DNA of 26,449 bases from a virus, in the IMG/VR virus record IMGVR_UViG_3300033233_000148, positions 1 to 26,449 of that record; one strand, written 5' to 3'. Position numbers and translations under genes: made by a program. Under the pieces are notes generated by a model. The model was not told where the DNA came from, made no database searches, and worked only from the letters and a program-made list of their open reading frames with translations. Positions 15,655 through 26,400 of this stretch are shown here, one piece after another. Each line of letters starts with the position of its first letter. Position 1 is the stretch's first letter.

Positions 15655-15842
15655 TAGTCAATCTTCTTACTGAAGCCGAGTAGCTTCTCGGCTGCTTTCT
15701 TATTTACTATAGAGACAAGGACCTTCTCTCCTGCCTCATTGTACCCATAGCAATACATATGAGTATCTGTTTCTTCCCAGAACTTAGGCTCCACGTATTC
15801 TTCGCGTATTACCCATCCTGGTCCTTTAATGTTCTTTGCCAT
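15654..15842 (-). CDS. small hypothetical protein, 62 aa
   Basis: A short ORF between purA and thyX, overlapping both with TAATG junctions and preceded by a good SD (AAGGAG, 5 nt from the ATG). The product has WVIREEYVEPKFWEE, then YCYGYNEAGEKVLVSIVNKK, which looks like a single small beta-sheet domain. No known family. Its strict coupling between two metabolic genes suggests it is expressed with them. Confidence 0.6.
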   Translation of the reverse strand: MAKNIKGPGWVIREEYVEPKFWEETDTHMYCYGYNEAGEKVLVSIVNKKAAEKLLGFSKKID

Positions 15843-16798
15843 TAGATCTCCTTCATCTCTGGTAGCGGTGTATCTGAATAGTACTTAATCTGAGGATACC
15901 GCTCGGTTAGAAAGTCTAGATAGTTTTCTGTGCTATGGAAGCAATGATTCTTACCATAATCCGAGAACCAGATCTTGCCCCAGTCACATGCATCCTTCAG
16001 AATATCTAGCTTTGTTAGTACTATAGTCTGTGGCTTGCTAATACCAATAGCATAATCTAGCTCTTCTGCATCGTTCCAATAGCACTTACGGGGCCTACCC
16101 GTAGTAGTGCCGTACTCCTGGCCTTTCTCGGTTAGCCAATCAATCTTCTCTCTATTAGGTGGCCCGTCTCCTACCCTAGATACGTATGCCTTCATTACTC
16201 CAATACGATTATCAATATTGTAGTATCCATTAGGCATCACAGAACTAGATGTTACATATGGGTAGCAGCCATAATCAATATCTAACATTACTCCTTGTGC
16301 ACTCTCAAACAGGACGTTGTCGTTATCCTTGAATGGAGCCAGGCCTTCATAGATCTTGAGGCCTCTGAGCTCAGCCCATGCTCTATAGTCAGCCATCCTT
16401 TTGCCAAGCCGTAGAGCCTTATCTCTATAGGCATATGCAATGCCTTTCTTAGTCGTACCTATCCCACTACCTTCAGCATCTTCTTTGGCATGCTGAGATA
16501 GAATGACATGAGCTCTAGATGAGATAAAAATCTCTGGACAGGCTGGTAGTCCATTGAGCTCTTCCATTAGGAGACCTGTGTCTATAACCATACCCGCATC
16601 AAGGGCAATAGAATGTCCTGATAGGACGCCACCAGGTAACTGATGTAGCGCATACTTTTGGTTGTCACGATAAACTGTATGTCCAGCATTTGGTCCACCA
16701 TTGAATCTAACTGACCATTGGTAATTGGGTGCTAGCCAACTAGCTACCTTACCCTTACCCTCATCACCGTACTGTAGCCCGAAAACTACTGTCTTCAT
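15842..16798 (-). CDS. purA: adenylosuccinate synthetase, short form
   Basis: Converts IMP plus aspartate to adenylosuccinate with GTP. The start is ATG 16798 (MKTVVFGLQYGDEGKGK), with SD AGGAG 8 nt upstream; the open frame reaches 16831 but only inside purB. The 318-aa product is about 110 aa shorter than E. coli PurA, like the archaeal and phage short forms. Key residues: the catalytic Asp in GDEGKGK (D12), the catalytic His in GGPNAGHT (H40), the SRVGDGP block, the Asp-binding YGTTTGRPRK (230-238) and the guanine-recognising TKLD (262-265). The retained Asp and TKLD favour true PurA chemistry with GTP over PurZ, which makes 2-aminoadenine precursors. It overlaps purB by 35 nt. Confidence 0.85.
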   Translation of the reverse strand: MKTVVFGLQYGDEGKGKVASWLAPNYQWSVRFNGGPNAGHTVYRDNQKYALHQLPGGVLSGHSIALDAGMVIDTGLLMEELNGLPACPEIFISSRAHVILSQHAKEDAEGSGIGTTKKGIAYAYRDKALRLGKRMADYRAWAELRGLKIYEGLAPFKDNDNVLFESAQGVMLDIDYGCYPYVTSSSVMPNGYYNIDNRIGVMKAYVSRVGDGPPNREKIDWLTEKGQEYGTTTGRPRKCYWNDAEELDYAIGISKPQTIVLTKLDILKDACDWGKIWFSDYGKNHCFHSTENYLDFLTERYPQIKYYSDTPLPEMKEI

Positions 16799-17930
16799 TG
16801 TGTTGCTCCTGGGTAGCTCTGTAGGCATCATACCTAGAGAACCCCTTATCCTTGATCATATGTAGCATTTCTTCTTGAGAGTCCGACTCTATTAGATGAC
16901 TATCTATTAGAGAATGATTAACCTTGAGGCCGTGGATAACCTTATTCATCCTATCGGTAACAAACGCTACCAGATTGAATACATCTGGTAACATTATTCT
17001 CTCAGTGGATGAATGGGTTAGGTCACGGTGTCCCCATAGTGGAACATTGTCGAGGGCCATTGGGACATAGCTACTAATCACTCTAGATAGGCCAGTAATG
17101 TTCTCGCACATAATAGGATTGTGCTTGTGTGGCATGGCTGATGAGCCGCCCTGACCTTCATAGAATGGCTCTTCAATCTCCTCGATACCACTCTGCTGCC
17201 AGAGTCTAATCTGGAGAGCAAACTTCTCAAGGGTCTTGGTGTAGATGGCCAAACGCCAGATGAGCTCAGCATAGAACTCACGTTGAACTACTTGAGTTGC
17301 ATGGTAGTCTAGTTGCATACCTAGTCTATCAGCTATCTTCTTCTGGATAGGATAGGGGATTACCCGGTTGTCACCTACTGCACCTGACAGTTTACCTGGT
17401 ACACAGATTCTAACTAGATCACCCAGATGGTTATTGATCTGTCTACCCCAGGAGGCGAAGATTTCAGAGAGCGATACTTTCATGGCGTGTTTACCATGAG
17501 TTCTTGCCATGATCTGTTGGTCTTTCTCCCAATTAGCTCTGTCCTCAATGACAGCTATTAGCTTCATTACCTCTAGGTGCAGGAACAATAGAGAGTCTCT
17601 AACTTGAATTGCAGTAGCTGAGTCTAATAGGTCAGAGCTAGTGAGGCCATAGTGGATCCACTTACAATCTGTTCCACATTCTTTCTCACACAACTTCTCT
17701 ACTGCAAATACGAACGCTAGGATATCGTGTCTAGTCTCTACTTCAATCTTATCTGCTAGCTCCATAACCATACCCACTGGTAGTCCAGTAGGATGCATAC
17801 GATTATGCTCGATGATAAAGTGTTCTTGGAGCGCGTCGTTAACCTTCTCCTCTATTAGGAGATAGATTCTATACCTATTCTCTCTGCTCCAGATGTTCTC
17901 TATTGCTGGGACTGAATATCTTTCGATCAT
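16764..17930 (-). CDS. purB: adenylosuccinate lyase, C-terminally shortened
   Basis: Fumarase-superfamily lyase that splits adenylosuccinate into AMP and fumarate. Motifs: YGLTSSDLLDSA (residues 94-105), ARTHGKHA (142-149, catalytic-type H145) and the signature GSSAMPHKHNP (262-272), followed by NVPLWGHRDLTHSSTERI. The signature usually reads PHKRNP; here the Arg is His (H270), and the usual Lys in GQKGSS is Gly. Against the roughly 430-aa bacterial enzyme, the 388-aa chain stops just after the SSFRATVR segment, losing about 40 C-terminal residues. The start is coupled to the guaC-like gene by TAATG. It completes the IMP-to-AMP branch with purA and could serve a Z-genome route too. Confidence 0.9.
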   Translation of the reverse strand: MIERYSVPAIENIWSRENRYRIYLLIEEKVNDALQEHFIIEHNRMHPTGLPVGMVMELADKIEVETRHDILAFVFAVEKLCEKECGTDCKWIHYGLTSSDLLDSATAIQVRDSLLFLHLEVMKLIAVIEDRANWEKDQQIMARTHGKHAMKVSLSEIFASWGRQINNHLGDLVRICVPGKLSGAVGDNRVIPYPIQKKIADRLGMQLDYHATQVVQREFYAELIWRLAIYTKTLEKFALQIRLWQQSGIEEIEEPFYEGQGGSSAMPHKHNPIMCENITGLSRVISSYVPMALDNVPLWGHRDLTHSSTERIMLPDVFNLVAFVTDRMNKVIHGLKVNHSLIDSHLIESDSQEEMLHMIKDKGFSRYDAYRATQEQHNEDSSFRATVR

Positions 17931-18973
17931 TATCTTTTACCGTGAGGTGTACCCTCAATGTAACCAGCATTGGTTACTCTTCTCCACCTAGCTAATCTAC
18001 GTAGCTCTTGGATATTACTAGCACCTGTATAGGCTAGACCAACCCTGATTGATTTGCATAGACCTTCAATGATCTTAACAGCTGACTTGCCCATGTAGGG
18101 TACCTTAGTAGAGATACCCTCTACTGGTAACCCAGCCTTAGACTTCTCAAAGAAGTTAGCTCGAGACTTTTCACTGGCCATACCCTGGTAGTACTTGAAT
18201 AACCTACCATCCTCTTCAATGATCTGACCTGGTGTCTGTGTAGTGCCAGCTAATAGGGAGCCGACCATTACCATATCAGCACCAGCAGCCAGAGCCTTAA
18301 CGATGTCACCTGAATGGCGGATACCACCATCTGCTACTATCGCGATATCCTTACCATCGCTCTTAGCTAGAGCACAGGATTCAATAGCTGATAGCTGTGG
18401 ACACCCATGACCAGTTACTAGTCTAGTTGTACAGACCGCACCTGATCCTACGCCTACCCTTAGTAGTGTAGCGCCTGACTTTACAAGTTGCTTGGCACCC
18501 TCATAGGTACAGACGTTACCTGCCATAATCTTAACGTCCGGATAATTGGCTCTTATCATCTCAACTGTACGCCAACAGTGAATATTATGGCCATTAGCTA
18601 CATCAACACAGAATAGGCGCACACCACTGGCATATAGTGCAGGTACCCTTTCATCAGCATCGTTAACTGAACCAACAGCAAAGAATACATTGCTGATCAT
18701 GTGTCCATGAAGGACCTTCTCGGCAATCTCTACTTGTTTGGCTACTGTCATATACCTATGAATGACAGAGCCAGCTTCTACCTCGTCCATTGCAAGCGCC
18801 ATCTCTAACTCAGTCACCGTATCCATTGGTGCAGAGAAGATTGGAGACTTTAAAGGGAAGTCTATTACAGGTGCTGTAATATCTGGGTGTTTTCTAGACT
18901 CGATTAGCGATCTACCTGGCTCGAGAACAAAGTCATCGAATGTGTATGCTACATCTGCTTCAACTAGTCTCAT
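17930..18973 (-). CDS. guaC: IMP dehydrogenase/GMP reductase family enzyme, GMP-reductase-like
   Basis: 347 aa, no CBS domain, the size of GMP reductase (GMP + NADPH to IMP + NH3). The catalytic Cys loop is GVGSGAVCTTR (C181), with CVDVANGH (D124) and MAGNVCT before it and VADGGIRHSGDI after. For GMP reductase speak the DVANG sequence (IMP dehydrogenase usually has TAHGH), the GMASE segment (264-268, compare GMSSE/GSASE) and the absence of the Arg-Tyr flap that IMP dehydrogenase needs for hydrolysis. Against it, several blocks (VPYMGK, VMVGSLLAGT) are IMP-dehydrogenase-like. Start by SD GAGGAG 5 nt before the ATG. Next to purB and purA, GMP reduction gives a complete GMP-to-AMP route. Confidence 0.75.
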   Translation of the reverse strand: MRLVEADVAYTFDDFVLEPGRSLIESRKHPDITAPVIDFPLKSPIFSAPMDTVTELEMALAMDEVEAGSVIHRYMTVAKQVEIAEKVLHGHMISNVFFAVGSVNDADERVPALYASGVRLFCVDVANGHNIHCWRTVEMIRANYPDVKIMAGNVCTYEGAKQLVKSGATLLRVGVGSGAVCTTRLVTGHGCPQLSAIESCALAKSDGKDIAIVADGGIRHSGDIVKALAAGADMVMVGSLLAGTTQTPGQIIEEDGRLFKYYQGMASEKSRANFFEKSKAGLPVEGISTKVPYMGKSAVKIIEGLCKSIRVGLAYTGASNIQELRRLARWRRVTNAGYIEGTPHGKR

Positions 18974-20787: not shown

Positions 20788-20924
20788 TCTGAAGTCTCCT
20801 TTGATATGCCTGACATAAATTTCTTAGCTAACATGCTACTGCCAAGCAGTACCGCTGCTGCCGCTGCAAATTTTATTACTACGTATACAGTAACAATACC
20901 TACGATAGGGTTTTTCATTGTCAT
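20760..20924 (-). CDS. small membrane protein, 54 aa
   Basis: This ORF fills most of the gap between dnaE and the metallophosphoesterase gene. Its ATG overlaps the dnaE TGA (ATGA at 20924-20921), and its TAG lies 28 nt inside the next gene. The product (MTMKNPIVGIVTVYVVIKF then AAAAAVLLGSSML) has one hydrophobic segment of about 27 residues, a basic KKF after it and a Ser/Lys tail. It could be a small holin-like or membrane-anchor protein. The coupling and hydrophobicity are the evidence; function unknown. Confidence 0.55.
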   Translation of the reverse strand: MTMKNPIVGIVTVYVVIKFAAAAAVLLGSSMLAKKFMSGISKETSECKSGQKQN

Positions 20925-23545
20925 CCTTCTTGCAGTTTAGCTATCTCTTTGATAAATGCTGCTTTTTGATTACAGATCTTGTATGCATCTGGGCACCTGA
21001 AGCTTGTCCCATCATGTCCCCTGAAGGTCACTACTACATCGTGAACGTCGCCCTCATACTTCTTTAGTATCTCAAGGAACTCTTGTGCTCTCGTAGCTGG
21101 TACATTAGCTTCTATTCTTTCAGTACTTCCTGTCTGCTGTAGAATCAGCGGACTCACTCCCCATATAACCAGCTTCACCGCTCGTCTATCATCTGCTTCT
21201 ACTACATCTACTGATGCATCTACTCTCAATGGCTGAATCTCATTCATTAGATGAGCGAACTTGGCATATATCTTTGGGAAAATTGCTCCTTCGATAGTAC
21301 CTGTAAGATCTTCCATTACTAGGAAGGCCATCTTGTCAGACTTTTTGGTAGTGATCTCTGTCTTTGATGTAATCACTACTGCCAGAGACACCTTAGTCTC
21401 TGCGGGCATTTCCTTTATGTCCTCAATCTTGTTGAGGTTCAGGCCAAACTGTCTAGATATCGTCCATTCAAGGGGATGCGACGAGACATAGAAACCTAGG
21501 AGCTCATGCTCATTTGATTGGAGCTGACTCTTTGGCATCTCATCTAACTCTTTGAGTTCTGGCCACTGTGGTTGCACTGGCTGCTCTGGAACAGAGAGCG
21601 GCTTCAACTTGGTCTTCTTACCAAGCTTGCCTGCTTCCTCTATGTCAGCCATTCTAAGGTGATAGGCTTCAGACTTCTTCTGGAACGTTTCCATTTTGCT
21701 GGTATAGCGTTTACATTCTGTACGATAGTTCCAGATGTCTTCGACAGCTGCCAGCATGGTAGCTCTGTTCATACCAAATGGGTCGAAAGCACCGGCCCGG
21801 ATTAGGCTTTCAATCTTACCTCGATTGACTACACCTAGATCCACACGCTCACAAAAATCTCTTAGTGATGTGAACGACCCGTTAGACTGCCTTTCAGCAA
21901 TGATCGTACTGGAACTTTCGCCTAGATTCTTGATTGGTCCTAAGCCGAAGCGAATATTGTCCTGACCATCTACATGGAATGAATGCTTACTTTCATTTAT
22001 GTCTGGTGGTAAAACTTGTATACCCAGCCTTCGACATTCTGATAGATACTTGATCATCTGATCTGTATTACCAGCGTCGGAAATCATAATAGCACACATG
22101 AATTCAGATGGGTAATAAGTTTTTAACCATGCTGTCTGATAAGTGATGAATGCATATGCTGCCGCATGACTCTTGTTGAAGGCATAGTCTGAGAACGATA
22201 CCATCTGATCCCAGAGCTCTGTACCTGCTGCTTCTGGTAGACCATTATCTACCCAGCCTGCCTTGAAGCCCTTCTCGTGCTTAGCCATCTTCTCTGGAAT
22301 CTTCTTACCGATGGCCTTGCGAAGATCATCAGCTTGTCCACCCGTGTATCCACATAGAGTCTTGGCAATATTCATTGCCTGCTCTTGATAGATTAGCCAG
22401 CCACCAGTTGGCTTTAGGATTGGCTCGAGCTCCGGTACTAGATACTCTGGGTCCTGTCGTCCAGCACGGACCCTGAGATAGACATTCTTATAGTCTGATG
22501 CTAGAGGACCTGGACGATAGATAGCTACAAGTGCGGTAATGTCTTCTATATTAGTAGGCCTGATCTGAATCATCAGATCTCTCATGCCACTACTGGTCTC
22601 TAACTGGAAAAGGCCAACGTTATCACCGGCTCTCAACCCAGCGAATACCTTCTCATCACAGAGATCTATCTTGGTAATATCTATTACCTTACCGGTACGA
22701 GCCTTAATGATGTCGATACAGTTATGTATCTTAGTAAGGGCATCTAGACCCAGGATATCGAACTTGATGAGGCCGACTTCCTCGATATTACCCATCTCCC
22801 ATTGGGTAGTAACCTCTTCACTACGACCTCTGAACAGTGGTACTGAATCTATTAGGGAGTTGTTACTGATTACCATTCCACTAGCGTGAACGCCCACGCT
22901 ACTAATATGGTCCTCTACCTTCTCAGCCCACCTTAGAATCTCACCCTCTGGTCCACTATCTTCATAGAAATCTCTGAGCTCTCTGACAGACTCCACGCTT
23001 AGCTTCAGTGACTGAGGCTTACCATGAATCGGAGGTAATAGGAGTTTTGCCAGGCCATCTCCCAGAGAATATGGGTGACCTAGAGTCTTGGCTACGCTAC
23101 GGACTGCTGCCTTAGCTCTGTGCATATTGAATGTACCAATATGCGCTACATGCTCGGCACCATACTTATTCGTAATGTAATCTAATACCTTATCGCGCAG
23201 CTTCTTTTCAACATCTATGTCGATATCTGGCATAGATATACGATCAGGGTTGAGGAACCTCTCAAATAGTAATCCCCATCTGATTGGATCTATGTCTGTA
23301 ATGCCCAGAACATAGGAGACTAAACTGCCTGCGGCGCTGCCTCTACCTGGGCCAATATAGATGTCGTTGTTCTTAGCCCAATTGATTAGGTCAGCTACGA
23401 TTAGGAAGTAGCCTGGGAAGCCCATCTTGACGATGACTCCCATCTCATATTGTAGTCGTGATTCATAGTCGGATGCCGTGTCAAGACCACGGAGCTTCAT
23501 CCCTTTATGACATTTGAATCTGAAATACTTATCTAGGTCTGACAA
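20921..23545 (-). CDS. dnaE: DNA polymerase III alpha, polymerase part (split dnaE)
   Basis: Replicative DNA polymerase catalytic part, about 875 aa from the proposed TTG start at 23545; the frame stays open to a GTG at 23572. Visible: MGFPGYFLIVADLINWAKNN, the palm GPGRGSAAGSLV, the catalytic PDIDIDVE (two Asp) and the third Asp in IKFDILGLDAL, the fingers with YNKSHAAAYA-type residues (AFNKSHAAAYAFITY), and a C-terminal OB-fold region (KVSLAVVITSKTEITT). A beta-clamp motif was not identified. It lacks its own PHP domain, which lies in the upstream frame. An AGGAG SD at 23558-23554, 8 nt before TTG, supports independent initiation. Confidence 0.85.
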   Translation of the reverse strand: MSDLDKYFRFKCHKGMKLRGLDTASDYESRLQYEMGVIVKMGFPGYFLIVADLINWAKNNDIYIGPGRGSAAGSLVSYVLGITDIDPIRWGLLFERFLNPDRISMPDIDIDVEKKLRDKVLDYITNKYGAEHVAHIGTFNMHRAKAAVRSVAKTLGHPYSLGDGLAKLLLPPIHGKPQSLKLSVESVRELRDFYEDSGPEGEILRWAEKVEDHISSVGVHASGMVISNNSLIDSVPLFRGRSEEVTTQWEMGNIEEVGLIKFDILGLDALTKIHNCIDIIKARTGKVIDITKIDLCDEKVFAGLRAGDNVGLFQLETSSGMRDLMIQIRPTNIEDITALVAIYRPGPLASDYKNVYLRVRAGRQDPEYLVPELEPILKPTGGWLIYQEQAMNIAKTLCGYTGGQADDLRKAIGKKIPEKMAKHEKGFKAGWVDNGLPEAAGTELWDQMVSFSDYAFNKSHAAAYAFITYQTAWLKTYYPSEFMCAIMISDAGNTDQMIKYLSECRRLGIQVLPPDINESKHSFHVDGQDNIRFGLGPIKNLGESSSTIIAERQSNGSFTSLRDFCERVDLGVVNRGKIESLIRAGAFDPFGMNRATMLAAVEDIWNYRTECKRYTSKMETFQKKSEAYHLRMADIEEAGKLGKKTKLKPLSVPEQPVQPQWPELKELDEMPKSQLQSNEHELLGFYVSSHPLEWTISRQFGLNLNKIEDIKEMPAETKVSLAVVITSKTEITTKKSDKMAFLVMEDLTGTIEGAIFPKIYAKFAHLMNEIQPLRVDASVDVVEADDRRAVKLVIWGVSPLILQQTGSTERIEANVPATRAQEFLEILKKYEGDVHDVVVTFRGHDGTSFRCPDAYKICNQKAAFIKEIAKLQEG

Positions 23546-24450
23546 GCCAGAAACTCCTGGTAGTCCTCGCACTTGGTAATATCAAACTGCGGAGTCTGAT
23601 ACTTACCTAACTGAATCTCTACTTCACATCGAGCTGCTATGTCCCTAGTGTTCCAGAAGGCTTCTCCTAGATTGTGGTCCATTGCAGCCTTATACAACTC
23701 ATCGGGCTCACGCACCCAGTTCTTCACCGAGAACTTGTTCTTACTCTTATAGTCGGAGAGTAACATCTTATATTGCTGAGCCATTAGAAGGTCGTGAGAC
23801 TCTACGTCTTCTTCCTTTGGATAGTGAGCATCACAAGCTAGCGTAGTCTGGATGTTTAGTTCCTCTGCTATCCTCATTGCCCACTTATTGAATGCTTCCT
23901 GTTCCCAATTGGGTTGGTCCTGCACTTCGATATACAGTCTGTCTTTGAAGTGACTGTGGAGTTTTGCTAACCATCTTATTCCAACATTCCCTCCATCAGT
24001 AAACGTCTTATCCATCTCATTATAGATGCCACCATTCTGAACTACCGTATCTCCTTCGACCAACTGCTTCTTTGCTATTACACCACCAAGGCATGCTGTT
24101 GTCGCTATTAACCCGTCGTTTCTTTCTAATAAATTTTCGAGTGCAACCCTTGGATTATAATAGAAGTTATGCAGATGAGCCCGATTGTTAAGCCAAATAA
24201 GGTTCCGCCAGCCAACGCTATTCATAGCTAACAGAACTAGATGGCGGTTATCCCTTGTCTTCTCTTCATTAGGTAGACCATCTTTATCCATGGTGCAATA
24301 CACTTCGCACCCTAGGATAGGTTTGATCCCTGCCTTCTTACATGCCTTATAGAAATCAATTGCACCAGACAGATTCCCATGATCTGTAATGGCACACGCC
24401 GACATACCTAGATTCTTAATACGTTCCACTAGTGGCTCTACTTTATTCAA
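23533..24450 (-). CDS. dnaE: DNA polymerase III alpha, PHP part (split or broken dnaE)
   Basis: PHP domain of the same polymerase, reading in a different frame from the downstream part and ending in TAG at 23535-23533. Motifs include ACAITDHGNLSGAIDFYKAC, IKPILGCEVYC, CLGGVIA and LACDAHYPKEED, as in bacterial DnaE. The listed start is a TTG at 24450 with no SD. In the same frame further upstream, TEYSPLDG (the normal continuation of the DnaE N-terminus) runs to bases 24474-24451, and beyond a 9-nt TAAGGTCCC lies FCHLHVH, the usual first PHP metal motif. So the true N-terminus is blocked by one in-frame TAA. If only the TTG is used, the PHP site lacks its first HxH. Confidence 0.75.
   Translation of the reverse strand: MNKVEPLVERIKNLGMSACAITDHGNLSGAIDFYKACKKAGIKPILGCEVYCTMDKDGLPNEEKTRDNRHLVLLAMNSVGWRNLIWLNNRAHLHNFYYNPRVALENLLERNDGLIATTACLGGVIAKKQLVEGDTVVQNGGIYNEMDKTFTDGGNVGIRWLAKLHSHFKDRLYIEVQDQPNWEQEAFNKWAMRIAEELNIQTTLACDAHYPKEEDVESHDLLMAQQYKMLLSDYKSKNKFSVKNWVREPDELYKAAMDHNLGEAFWNTRDIAARCEVEIQLGKYQTPQFDITKCEDYQEFLACQT
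23554..23558 (-). promoter_or_regulatory. Shine-Dalgarno site for internal TTG start of the polymerase part
   Basis: AGGAG on the minus strand, 8 nt upstream of TTG 23545, within the last codons of the PHP reading frame. It makes re-initiation at the polymerase ORF plausible and argues that the split could be functional rather than a simple lesion. Confidence 0.5.
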
Positions 24451-24480
24451 GCCATCTAGTGGTGAATACTCTGTGGGACC

Positions 24481-24531
24481 TTAATGCACATGCAGATGAC
24501 AAAAATTTCTAACATTGTCACGCATGTGCAT
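24481..24531 (-). CDS. 16-codon leader encoding the DnaE HLHVH motif, ending at an in-frame TAA
   Basis: From ATG 24531 (or ATG 24525), reading MHMRDNVRNFCHLHVH and then TAA at 24483-24481. A strong AAGGAGG SD (24542-24536) precedes it. NFCHLHVH matches the start of DnaE/PHP proteins (FVHLHVH) and is in the same frame as the PHP ORF that resumes with TEYSPLDG at 24474. Either this is the 5' end of dnaE cut off by a nonsense insertion, or translation passes the TAA by an unknown event. Confidence 0.6.
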   Translation of the reverse strand: MHMRDNVRNFCHLHVH

Positions 24532-24532
24532 T
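24483..24532 (-). repeat. imperfect inverted repeat / hairpin spanning the dnaE start
   Basis: The outer arms are a perfect 11-bp inverted repeat: AATGCACATGC (minus strand, 24532-24522) and GCATGTGCATT (24493-24483). An inner arm of 7 pairs follows, TGACAA/TTGTCA plus one G-T pair, with a 2-nt bulge and a 12-nt loop. The 5' arm contains both candidate dnaE ATGs and overlaps the end of the homing-endonuclease-like gene; the 3' arm encodes HVH and ends on the first bases of the in-frame TAA. No U-tract follows in either direction, so it is not a typical intrinsic terminator; translational control is more likely. Confidence 0.75.
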
Positions 24533-25348
24533 GATCCTCCTTGATCCTTGTTTTGTTTCCCAACCATAAATTTTATCCTTAAAGTTCTTTTCTATTTCCC
24601 TATAAACTCCAACATCTATATATGTAATCTCAATGGCAGGATGTTGGTTTTTCATTAATTCTCTTATTAACTTAGATCTCTCATCCCACCATCCTTTGAC
24701 TTCATAATATTTTCCCTCTGCTATCTTAAAGTCTGGTGTATAAATAATTGTCTTATCTGATAGATGTAGATAGAAGTTATCTGGTTCATATGTATAGTTT
24801 ATGTCTTGAAATTTCAAATATCTACAAAAATTAGCTTCCCAAGAACTTCGGACATAATGTCCTATATCCTCTCTGACGCCACCTATACCCTTTGTATAAT
24901 GTCTAGAAGCACTCCGTTTGGTAGCTGCGATAGACATTTTAAGTCGCGTCTGTTCTGTGATAGGTTTTCTAGGACGTTTAGCAATAGCAGCTATACTCTC
25001 TCGATGTGTCATCCCTCCGCAATGTCTACTGCAATATCTTTGCTTACTGTGAATAGGGTTATAAACTTTACCACAGTACCAACATTCCCTTGGAAGAGTC
25101 TTTACTTTCTTGCGAAGACCCTTTCTTAAGTTATGTATTGTCCTGTAGGTGTCTCTACAAAAGATACTACAGAACTTGGATCTATGTCTTTTCGTTAAAT
25201 GTCCACACTGTAGACACTTTGGACGTTCTTTCCATCTACTGTGTCTTGCACACCAAGTACTACAATATTTTTTATTTTGGCTTGGATAGCTTTGGAAAAT
25301 CTTTGCACAAGACAAACATTCTCCTGTTATTATACTATTGGTCTTCAT
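24518..25348 (-). CDS. zinc-finger PD-(D/E)XK homing-endonuclease-like protein
   Basis: 276 aa. Three CxxC...CxxxC zinc knuckles stand in a row (C11/C14/C29/C33; C45/C48/C60/C64; C89/C92/C106/C110). They are followed by a NUMOD3-like DNA-binding motif (ITEQTRLKMSIAATKRS, 130-146) and a nuclease domain: RSSWEANFCRYL (167-178), YTYEP, then YTPDFKIAEGKYYEVKGW with D206, E216 and K218. The layout is that of a phage homing endonuclease. It shares its nuclease domain with the gene at 8673-9245. It sits between recA and dnaE, a typical homing target region, is AT-rich relative to both, and its last codons carry the SD and half of the hairpin of dnaE. Confidence 0.8.
   Translation of the reverse strand: MKTNSIITGECLSCAKIFQSYPSQNKKYCSTWCARHSRWKERPKCLQCGHLTKRHRSKFCSIFCRDTYRTIHNLRKGLRKKVKTLPRECWYCGKVYNPIHSKQRYCSRHCGGMTHRESIAAIAKRPRKPITEQTRLKMSIAATKRSASRHYTKGIGGVREDIGHYVRSSWEANFCRYLKFQDINYTYEPDNFYLHLSDKTIIYTPDFKIAEGKYYEVKGWWDERSKLIRELMKNQHPAIEITYIDVGVYREIEKNFKDKIYGWETKQGSRRINAHA
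24536..24542 (-). promoter_or_regulatory. strong Shine-Dalgarno site for the dnaE leader
   Basis: The sequence AAGGAGG lies in the 3' end of the homing-endonuclease-like gene, 4 nt before ATG 24531 and 10 nt before ATG 24525. It is one of the best SD matches in the window and marks the intended dnaE start, which the hairpin at 24483-24532 would partly sequester. Confidence 0.6.
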
Positions 25349-25369
25349 TCACTCTCTAGTGTTTGCCAT
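25349..25369 (-). pseudogene. six-codon ORF MANTRE, possible remnant of the original dnaE start
   Basis: The recA TAA overlaps an ATG (TAATG at 25371-25367) that opens MANTRE and stops with TGA immediately before the homing-endonuclease-like ATG. TAATG coupling marks several real gene starts in this window, so this ATG may once have started the gene that followed recA, presumably dnaE, before the nuclease gene was inserted. This is inference; the ORF is too short to prove it. Confidence 0.3.
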
Positions 25370-26400
25370 TACGCTCTTACTTTATTTGTAATTTCTTCCA
25401 CTAGCTTTGGATTACCCTTCAGGAATGCACAGACATTAGCCTCACCTTGGCCTAACTTATTGTTATCATAAGCATACCAAGCACCAGCCTTGTCGATAAT
25501 GTTCTTGTCTACAGCTACCTTAACTAGGTCTGCCATAGCATCAATACCAGAACCATATCTGATTAGGAACTCTGCCTCTCTGAACGGAGGAGCTACCTTG
25601 TTTTTGGATACTTTTACCTTGGTTAGGTTAGCTACTGAGGTCTCACCTTCCTTGATAACTTCCTTACGCCTTACATCCAGTCTCTGGCTAGCATAGAACT
25701 TCAAGGCATTGCCACCGCAGCTTGTCTCTGGATTTCCATAGACTACGCCAATCTTCATACGAATCTGATTCACGAATATCAACACCGTGTTGGTCTTGTA
25801 TACGATACCAGTTAACTTTCGCATAGCCTGGCTCATTAGTCTGGCCTGTAGACCCATGAACTGCTGACCCATCACGCCCTCTAGTTCTGCTTTTGGGGTA
25901 AGAGCTGCTACTGAGTCTACTACACAGATTCCTACAGCGCCTGTAGCGATGATCTTTTCTACTACTTCTAGGCCTTCTTCTGCCGAGTCTGGCTGAGAGA
26001 TCAGAAGTAGATCTGTGTCTACACCAAGATCCTTGGCATACTTAAGGTCTAAGGCGTGCTCCATATCTACGTATGCTGCACCAAGCCCTAGTTTTTGTGC
26101 CTCTGCTACAGCATGGAGACAGAGCGTTGTCTTCCCAGAGCTCTCTGGGCCACCGATCTCAATGATTCTGCCACGAGGATAGCCACCTACACCTAGTGCT
26201 GTGTCAATAGACATACAGCCTGACGAGATAGCTGAGACGCCAATGATCTTATCTTGACCCTGATGAACGATGCCTTTTCCGAACTGCTTTTCTAGAGCTA
26301 GTCTCGCCAGCTCTAATGTTTTTCCTGCGGGGTTTAATAGAACCTCTGCTTCCGCTAATACTTCCTGCTTTAGCTCTTCGATGTCCTTCTTTTTTGCCAT
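25369..26400 (-). CDS. recA: RecA recombinase, bacterial type
   Basis: 343 aa, close in length and sequence to cellular RecA, not the shorter UvsX type. It forms ATP-dependent filaments on single-stranded DNA for strand exchange. Visible: Walker A GPESSGKTT, the catalytic-type Glu in YVDMEHALD (usually YVDAEHALD), the L1 region MGLQARLMSQAMRKL, Walker B CVVDSVAALTP, the NQIRMKIGVVYGNPETSCGG L2 loop (usually NPETTTGG) and GGNALKFYASQRLDVRR. The acidic C-terminal tail of E. coli RecA is largely missing. The SD AGGAG is 8 nt before the ATG. It lies first in the visible leftward unit, upstream of dnaE. Confidence 0.95.
   Translation of the reverse strand: MAKKKDIEELKQEVLAEAEVLLNPAGKTLELARLALEKQFGKGIVHQGQDKIIGVSAISSGCMSIDTALGVGGYPRGRIIEIGGPESSGKTTLCLHAVAEAQKLGLGAAYVDMEHALDLKYAKDLGVDTDLLLISQPDSAEEGLEVVEKIIATGAVGICVVDSVAALTPKAELEGVMGQQFMGLQARLMSQAMRKLTGIVYKTNTVLIFVNQIRMKIGVVYGNPETSCGGNALKFYASQRLDVRRKEVIKEGETSVANLTKVKVSKNKVAPPFREAEFLIRYGSGIDAMADLVKVAVDKNIIDKAGAWYAYDNNKLGQGEANVCAFLKGNPKLVEEITNKVRA

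Follow-up and report, generated by a model that had tools for sequence, protein, structure and literature searches.

A candidate recoding element in phage dnaE, a putative short stop-hop site with a 5′ hairpin near the DnaE N-terminus

In RF2 (prfB), a +1 frameshift takes place at CUU-UGA-C, with a Shine-Dalgarno sequence 3 nt before the stop. Efficient natural bypassing has one well-studied case from a bacterial virus, T4 gene 60, alongside that of a yeast mitochondrion (PMC5009743). In gene 60 the take-off codon is followed by a stop, and a stem-loop on its 5′ side is described as pulling the mRNA back when it refolds and driving the ribosome forward; the homing endonuclease gene mobA lies upstream, and the bypassed insertion is thought to protect against cleavage (PMC5009743, PMC3014915, PMC11194080). 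Among shorter events, synthetic stop-hops of +2, +5 and +6 have been reported (Weiss et al. 1987, via PMC5009743), and a bypass linked to UUA decoding was proposed for the terminase of phage Hau3 (PMC5009743). According to the same 2016 review, shorter counterparts of gene 60 have long been presumed, and regulatory cases would broaden interest in them (PMC5009743). RNA hairpins at start sites are described for T4 soc, e and homing endonuclease genes (PMC2988022). In the titles and opening lines of abstracts that we searched, we found no report of recoding in phage dnaE.

The stretch of DNA analyzed here (the window) is a virus record of 26,449 bases, whose minus strand carries, in this order, recA, a free-standing nuclease gene and dnaE. 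The features discussed below are:

25369-26400, minus strand: recA, upstream of the nuclease gene (ORF and Pfam)
24518-25348, minus strand: free-standing nuclease gene, 276 aa (ORF; Pfam PF05367, E=1e-8; relative in locus L009)
24550-24567, minus strand: possible upstream in-frame dnaE start, ATG at 24567, with AAGGA at 24580 (read from the sequence)
24536-24541, minus strand: AGGAGG ribosome-binding site, its final two G inside the extended stem
24484-24531, minus strand: first dnaE piece, ATG to CAT, MHMRDNVRNFCHLHVH, 16 codons (alignment with uninterrupted DnaE from seven phage loci)
24483-24532, minus strand: hairpin, 5′ arm 24532-24515 and 3′ arm 24502-24483, with an extension pairing 24537-24533 with 24480-24476
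24475-24483, minus strand: 9-nt insertion TAA GGT CCC between HLHVH and TEYS, an in-frame stop followed by two codons
23536-24474, minus strand: dnaE continuation TEYSPLDG.., PHP domain, in frame, with its stop at 23533-23535
20921-23545, minus strand: polymerase part of DnaE, a second ORF, likely start TTG at 23545 behind AGGAG

The nuclease combines a Cys-rich N-terminal part with a Phage_endonuclease_I-like C-terminal domain, and its last codons overlap the ribosome-binding site and start of dnaE; by domain and position, it is a candidate free-standing homing endonuclease. Uninterrupted dnaE genes are directly preceded by recA-type genes in 6 of 103 control loci, where the order is that of the window without the nuclease. 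The PHP and polymerase parts of the window dnaE meet at overlapping ORFs (23533-23572, about 26 nt longer than in relatives), a split that looks like gene fission. Elsewhere, at 15842-18973, the window carries an adenylosuccinate synthetase-like gene (Pfam), and the adjoining ORFs look like genes for adenylosuccinate lyase and IMP dehydrogenase. Genes of purine metabolism are associated with modified phage DNA, which these could serve.

From the ATG at 24531, dnaE reads MHMRDNVRNFCHLHVH, then TAA GGT CCC, then TEYSPLDG and the remainder of the PHP domain. Because the strand bearing the HLH motif and the residues after it are contiguous in the aligned relatives (seven phage loci), these nine bases with their stop interrupt a highly conserved DnaE motif, and the stop lies at the 3′ foot of the hairpin. 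A start at ATG 24567 would give the window an N-terminal ORF of 28 codons. This ORF (MVGKQNKDQGGS..HLHVH; 24533-24567) resembles MEHQNKEGGQ..HLHLH of L033 (upstream of 7082), and the AACAAGGA..AGGAGG stretch that both contain may, judging by its sequence, reflect a common origin.

The hairpin itself is present as the preliminary description of this DNA had it, with 11 outer and 7 inner pairs at 24483-24532. On the dnaE (minus) strand, the outer stem pairs AATGCACATGC (24532-24522) perfectly with GCATGTGCATT (24493-24483) over 11 bp, and the inner stem pairs GTGACAA (24521-24515) with TTGTCAT (24502-24496) over 7 bp, one of them G-U. The predicted fold adds another 5 bp between GGATC (24537-24533) and GGTCC (24480-24476), so that bases of the insertion lengthen the stem as far as the ribosome-binding site. 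Again as first described, the final codons of the nuclease gene lie in the 5′ arm together with the two possible dnaE start ATGs (24531 and 24525); the 3′ arm consists of dnaE's own HLHVH codons, encoding HVH and followed immediately by the in-frame TAA (24483-24481).

The window hairpin is real and better than chance. Its 11-bp arm is the sole perfect inverted repeat of at least 11 bp with a 3-40 nt loop in the whole record (mean random expectation 0.17); since 5 of 30 Markov-1 sequences also had one, an arm of this length is by itself no more than modestly improbable. Among 70-nt windows along the minus strand, the whole hairpin has the lowest energy (best window −29.3, with 2 of 2638 windows at or below −28.3), and when the strands were folded separately the z-scores were −3.84 for the plus strand and −4.33 for the mRNA strand. 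None of 300 synonymous versions encoding the same peptide was equally stable (z=−3.53).

The same codon is interrupted in other phages. We scanned viral contigs, in GAT and GAC halves, for any insertion of 1-31 nt between HLHxH and EYSxxLDG, and the full listings gave two loci (GAT half) and three (GAC half). All five are dnaE genes with an in-frame stop zero or one codon after HLHxH, a feature that the search pattern did not require, and in all five dnaE resumes past the stop in another frame: L017 reads CAT TCT TGA, L030 CAT ACG TAG and L031 CAT ACG TGA, each at +5, and L032 and L033 both read CAC TAG, each at +8. With the window, this makes a set of six interrupted loci. L030 is related to L031, and L032 to L033, the members of each pair coming from different metagenome contigs; we infer four independent lineages from the unlike flanks rather than from a tree. 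The pattern without an insertion occurs in at least 120 viral loci in the GAT half alone. In 84,980 species of bacteria and archaea, the insertion pattern (GAT half) matched five times, four times outside dnaE and once in a dnaE with a 25-nt tandem duplication and no such stop arrangement. In named-phage records, HLHVH-TEYS is unbroken in 59 of the best 60 of 809. One named-phage dnaE match, MT835961.1 (L170), begins only at query residue 43, possibly because of some other interruption.

Some of these genes are also broken elsewhere. The dnaE of L033 (7081-12870; also L032/L167) is fractured within its palm domain, where the two halves are separated by a minus-strand ORF of 553 aa that lacks a Pfam match, and in L017 (8836-9453) a second HNH/NUMOD4-like gene, with no Rfam intron match, interrupts dnaE after ..INALIRP.

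Past the stop, the dnaE genes of both pairs are under strong purifying selection: dN was 0.114 and dS 0.817 for L030/L031 (1001 codons), and 0.099 and 1.75 for L032/L033 (432 codons). The stop is common to both members of each pair, differing in type in L030/L031 (TAG versus TGA), and stop and 5′ element are kept in both pairs across a dS of 0.8-1.8. Because of this retention and of the selection downstream, in two pairs, we conclude that the interrupted dnaE is not decaying. Just past the stop, the amino acids of TEYS..LDG are kept and changes are mostly synonymous. On the 5′ side, L032 and L033 differ at 1 of 66 nt from ribosome-binding site to stop, and the short ORF has 19 codons that can be compared, every one of them identical, versus 205 of 365 beyond the stop (P=1.7e-5). 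The corresponding figures for L030/L031, 10 of 11 versus 542 of 808, do not differ significantly (P=0.08). Identity falls once the stop is passed, which places the signal 5′ of the stop.

A hairpin at this position is common to most of the set. In synonymous shuffles, p was 0.003 for L017, 0.010 for L030 and 0/300 for each of L032, L033 and the window; L031 does not stand out (p=0.13), and the most stable fold there is a different one from L030's start-codon stem. Five of the six interrupted loci therefore reach p≤0.01, versus 2 of 95 uninterrupted dnaE controls (Fisher 1.6e-6, with relatives counted apart and with near-identical loci, e.g. L039, L046 and L068, among the controls). Dinucleotide shuffles gave the same picture, weaker for L017 (z −2.1) and L030 (z −1.9), with L031 at −0.7 and 2 of 95 controls below −2. 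Between lineages the arms are unrelated in sequence and occupy the same codon positions. We left out of this test L038, the locus with the tandem duplication (hairpin z +1.57), and dropped L034-L037 (chance matches outside dnaE), L002 and L165-L169 (copies) and 39 of 142 pattern matches with no ATG within about 20 codons.

We consider it about an even bet (probability roughly 0.5) that translation is recoded here, at the N-terminal end of phage DnaE, by a short stop-hop or bypass with a 5′ hairpin. What is observed is the insertion, the stop, the hairpin, the recurrence at one codon and the purifying selection on the gene. Read jointly, the two ORFs give a conserved protein, the HLHxH and (T/S/A)EYS of DnaE, and in four of the six loci (the window, L030, L032 and L033) the stretch from the stop to EYS contains no ATG, GTG or TTG in frame with dnaE. 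With conserved protein on both sides and no start between, translation should cross the stop in these loci. Ribosomes would translate the short N-terminal ORF of about 9 to 28 codons, which ends in HLHxH or HLHxH plus one residue, and would then reach the stop at the hairpin's 3′ foot; a fraction of them would move forward 5, 8 or 9 nt beyond it and pick up translation in the (T/S/A)EYS..LDG frame, yielding DnaE with an intact PHP motif. More tentatively, by analogy with what is proposed for T4 gene 60, the hairpin refolding 5′ of the ribosome might push this hop. A codon-matched hop does not serve for all loci: of the six, L031 is the only one whose take-off and landing codons are the same (ACG/ACG), and in the window the hop would have to go from CAT to CCC. 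The short ORFs are also too short for a nascent-peptide signal of the T4 type.

Ordinary −1 (or +2) frameshifting, or readthrough of the stop, might take the place of a hop. The net shift is 2 mod 3 in five of the six loci, so that the +5 and +8 loci need a −1 or +2 shift and the window needs stop readthrough, and the stops of L017, L030, L031 and L033 stand in UGA-C or UAG-C contexts, which are leaky. We nevertheless find this unlikely, since no slippery heptamer was seen, no conserved structure lies 3′ of the stop (where conservation drops at once), re-pairing of the P-site tRNA one base back is poor in all loci and the window would call for a second mechanism. Reassignment of the stop was rejected: the ORFs of the window end in TAA, TAG and TGA alike, and it would leave the frame unrestored in five of the six loci. 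The window carries no suppressor tRNA. L017 carries Met, Ile and His tRNAs, and tRNA matches exceeded the cut-off in two of five records; the tRNA-His(GTG) of L017 lies at 245-318, and the N-terminal dnaE ORF of that locus is His-rich before the stop. An intron remnant (group I or II) was likewise rejected, with no Rfam match in the window at the gathering score or around the site at E≤1, and Rfam found nothing but tRNAs in the six other loci.

Two products might instead be made, a leader peptide ending at the stop and a DnaE started anew just after it, with the hairpin as tuner; the restart could come from terminating ribosomes or from 30S subunits bound at AGGAGG that step over the folded hairpin. 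A restart could serve in L017 and L031 because a start codon overlaps the stop there (TTG in TTGA and GTG in GTGA), all four lineages have a ribosome-binding-site-like stretch just 5′ of the hairpin, and the conserved stretch runs from that sequence to the stop. Against this stand the four loci with no in-frame start before EYS and the cost to the protein: DnaE would keep its other conserved domain residues but lose the HLH histidines, which are ligands in the PHP site. Restarting farther along, right after LDG, was rejected as nothing special, as ATG, GTG or TTG occurs there in 60 of 130 uninterrupted controls. Taken together, we rate either route of restart as rather improbable. That dnaE is simply broken (a pseudogene, a population variant or an assembly error), with a hairpin that controls initiation only, has in its favor the second joint of the window dnaE, with its two overlapping ORFs, and our failure to find a close relative of the window. 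It is hard to reconcile with two pairs of relatives that share the arrangement under strong purifying selection, and with lesions that all fall on one codon and each bring a stop, and we hold it to be improbable.

The preliminary description took a different view, in which the nuclease gene had evolved or imported sequence complementary to the dnaE start and thereby set dnaE expression; it named the same structure in nuclease-free relatives as counter-evidence. In its favor, the 5′ arm lies inside the nuclease ORF, and nuclease genes directly precede dnaE in the window and in L017, where the gene encodes an unrelated HNH protein. Pfam and reading of the ORFs showed no nuclease gene directly upstream in L030, L031, L032 or L033, however, and pairing of the start region with HLHxH is significant in three of these four (L030, L032 and L033); conversely, in L009 a relative of the window nuclease (45% identical over the C-terminal part) immediately precedes a dnaE that is uninterrupted and lacks that hairpin. 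The nuclease is thus neither needed nor enough for the hairpin, and an origin of the hairpin from that gene, which we regard as very improbable, fails: the nuclease gene is a neighbor, not the source. Control of the dnaE start survives in part, as the fold covers the start and the end of AGGAGG, and some effect of the hairpin on dnaE expression is likely. As for the covariation expected among relatives, the arms are identical within each related pair, leaving no compensatory changes to count, and differ completely between lineages. Upstream of intact dnaE, the 25 Pfam families listed of 91 (103 proteins) include no nuclease family, and rarer nucleases may occur beyond those 25. The nuclease may still have favored the insertion by targeting conserved dnaE DNA.

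If the recoding reading is right, a tentative extension is that very short bypass sites, with a gap of 5-9 nt and a stop at the hairpin foot, evolved repeatedly at one codon of the replicative polymerase gene, where they may shield a homing-endonuclease target within the conserved HLHVH-TEYS DNA or make the amount of polymerase depend on how translation is faring. Small natural sites that can be compared with one another would make it testable what a ribosome minimally needs for a stop-hop and why dnaE keeps such a site. Gene callers will mis-start or split such dnaE genes.

Of the described systems, RF2 likewise has its stop early, no more than about 25 codons into the gene, and continues in another frame, but the dnaE net shifts are +2 mod 3 or 0 rather than +1, and neither CUU-UGA-C nor a Shine-Dalgarno sequence 3 nt 5′ of the stop occurs at the six loci. 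The T4 soc and e hairpins also cover a start region, whereas the dnaE hairpin has a stop behind it, within a coding sequence that is split. The Hau3 terminase is likewise a phage gene with a short gap and a Shine-Dalgarno sequence 5′ of it; it is a different gene, and its link to UUA decoding sets it apart. T4 gene 60 resembles the dnaE loci in its stop directly after the last decoded codon, its 5′ stem-loop, its break close to the N-terminal end of a gene for DNA replication and, for the window and L017, a nuclease gene just upstream, where by analogy the insertion may protect from cleavage. It differs in its gap (50 nt versus 5-9 in dnaE), in its matched take-off and landing codons (found in dnaE only in L031), in its KKYK nascent-peptide signal, which lies 25-30 residues before take-off (the dnaE N-terminal ORF has only about 9-28 codons), and in its nuclease, absent from two dnaE lineages (L030/L031 and L032/L033). 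Because matched codons (bar L031) and the nascent-peptide signal are missing, we do not file the dnaE site as a member of the gene 60 type. With the synthetic stop-hops it shares a short forward jump over a stop, and ACG UG ACG in L031 is an exact +5 with matched codons; unlike them, the dnaE genes are natural and carry a hairpin, and the codons of the other five loci are unmatched.
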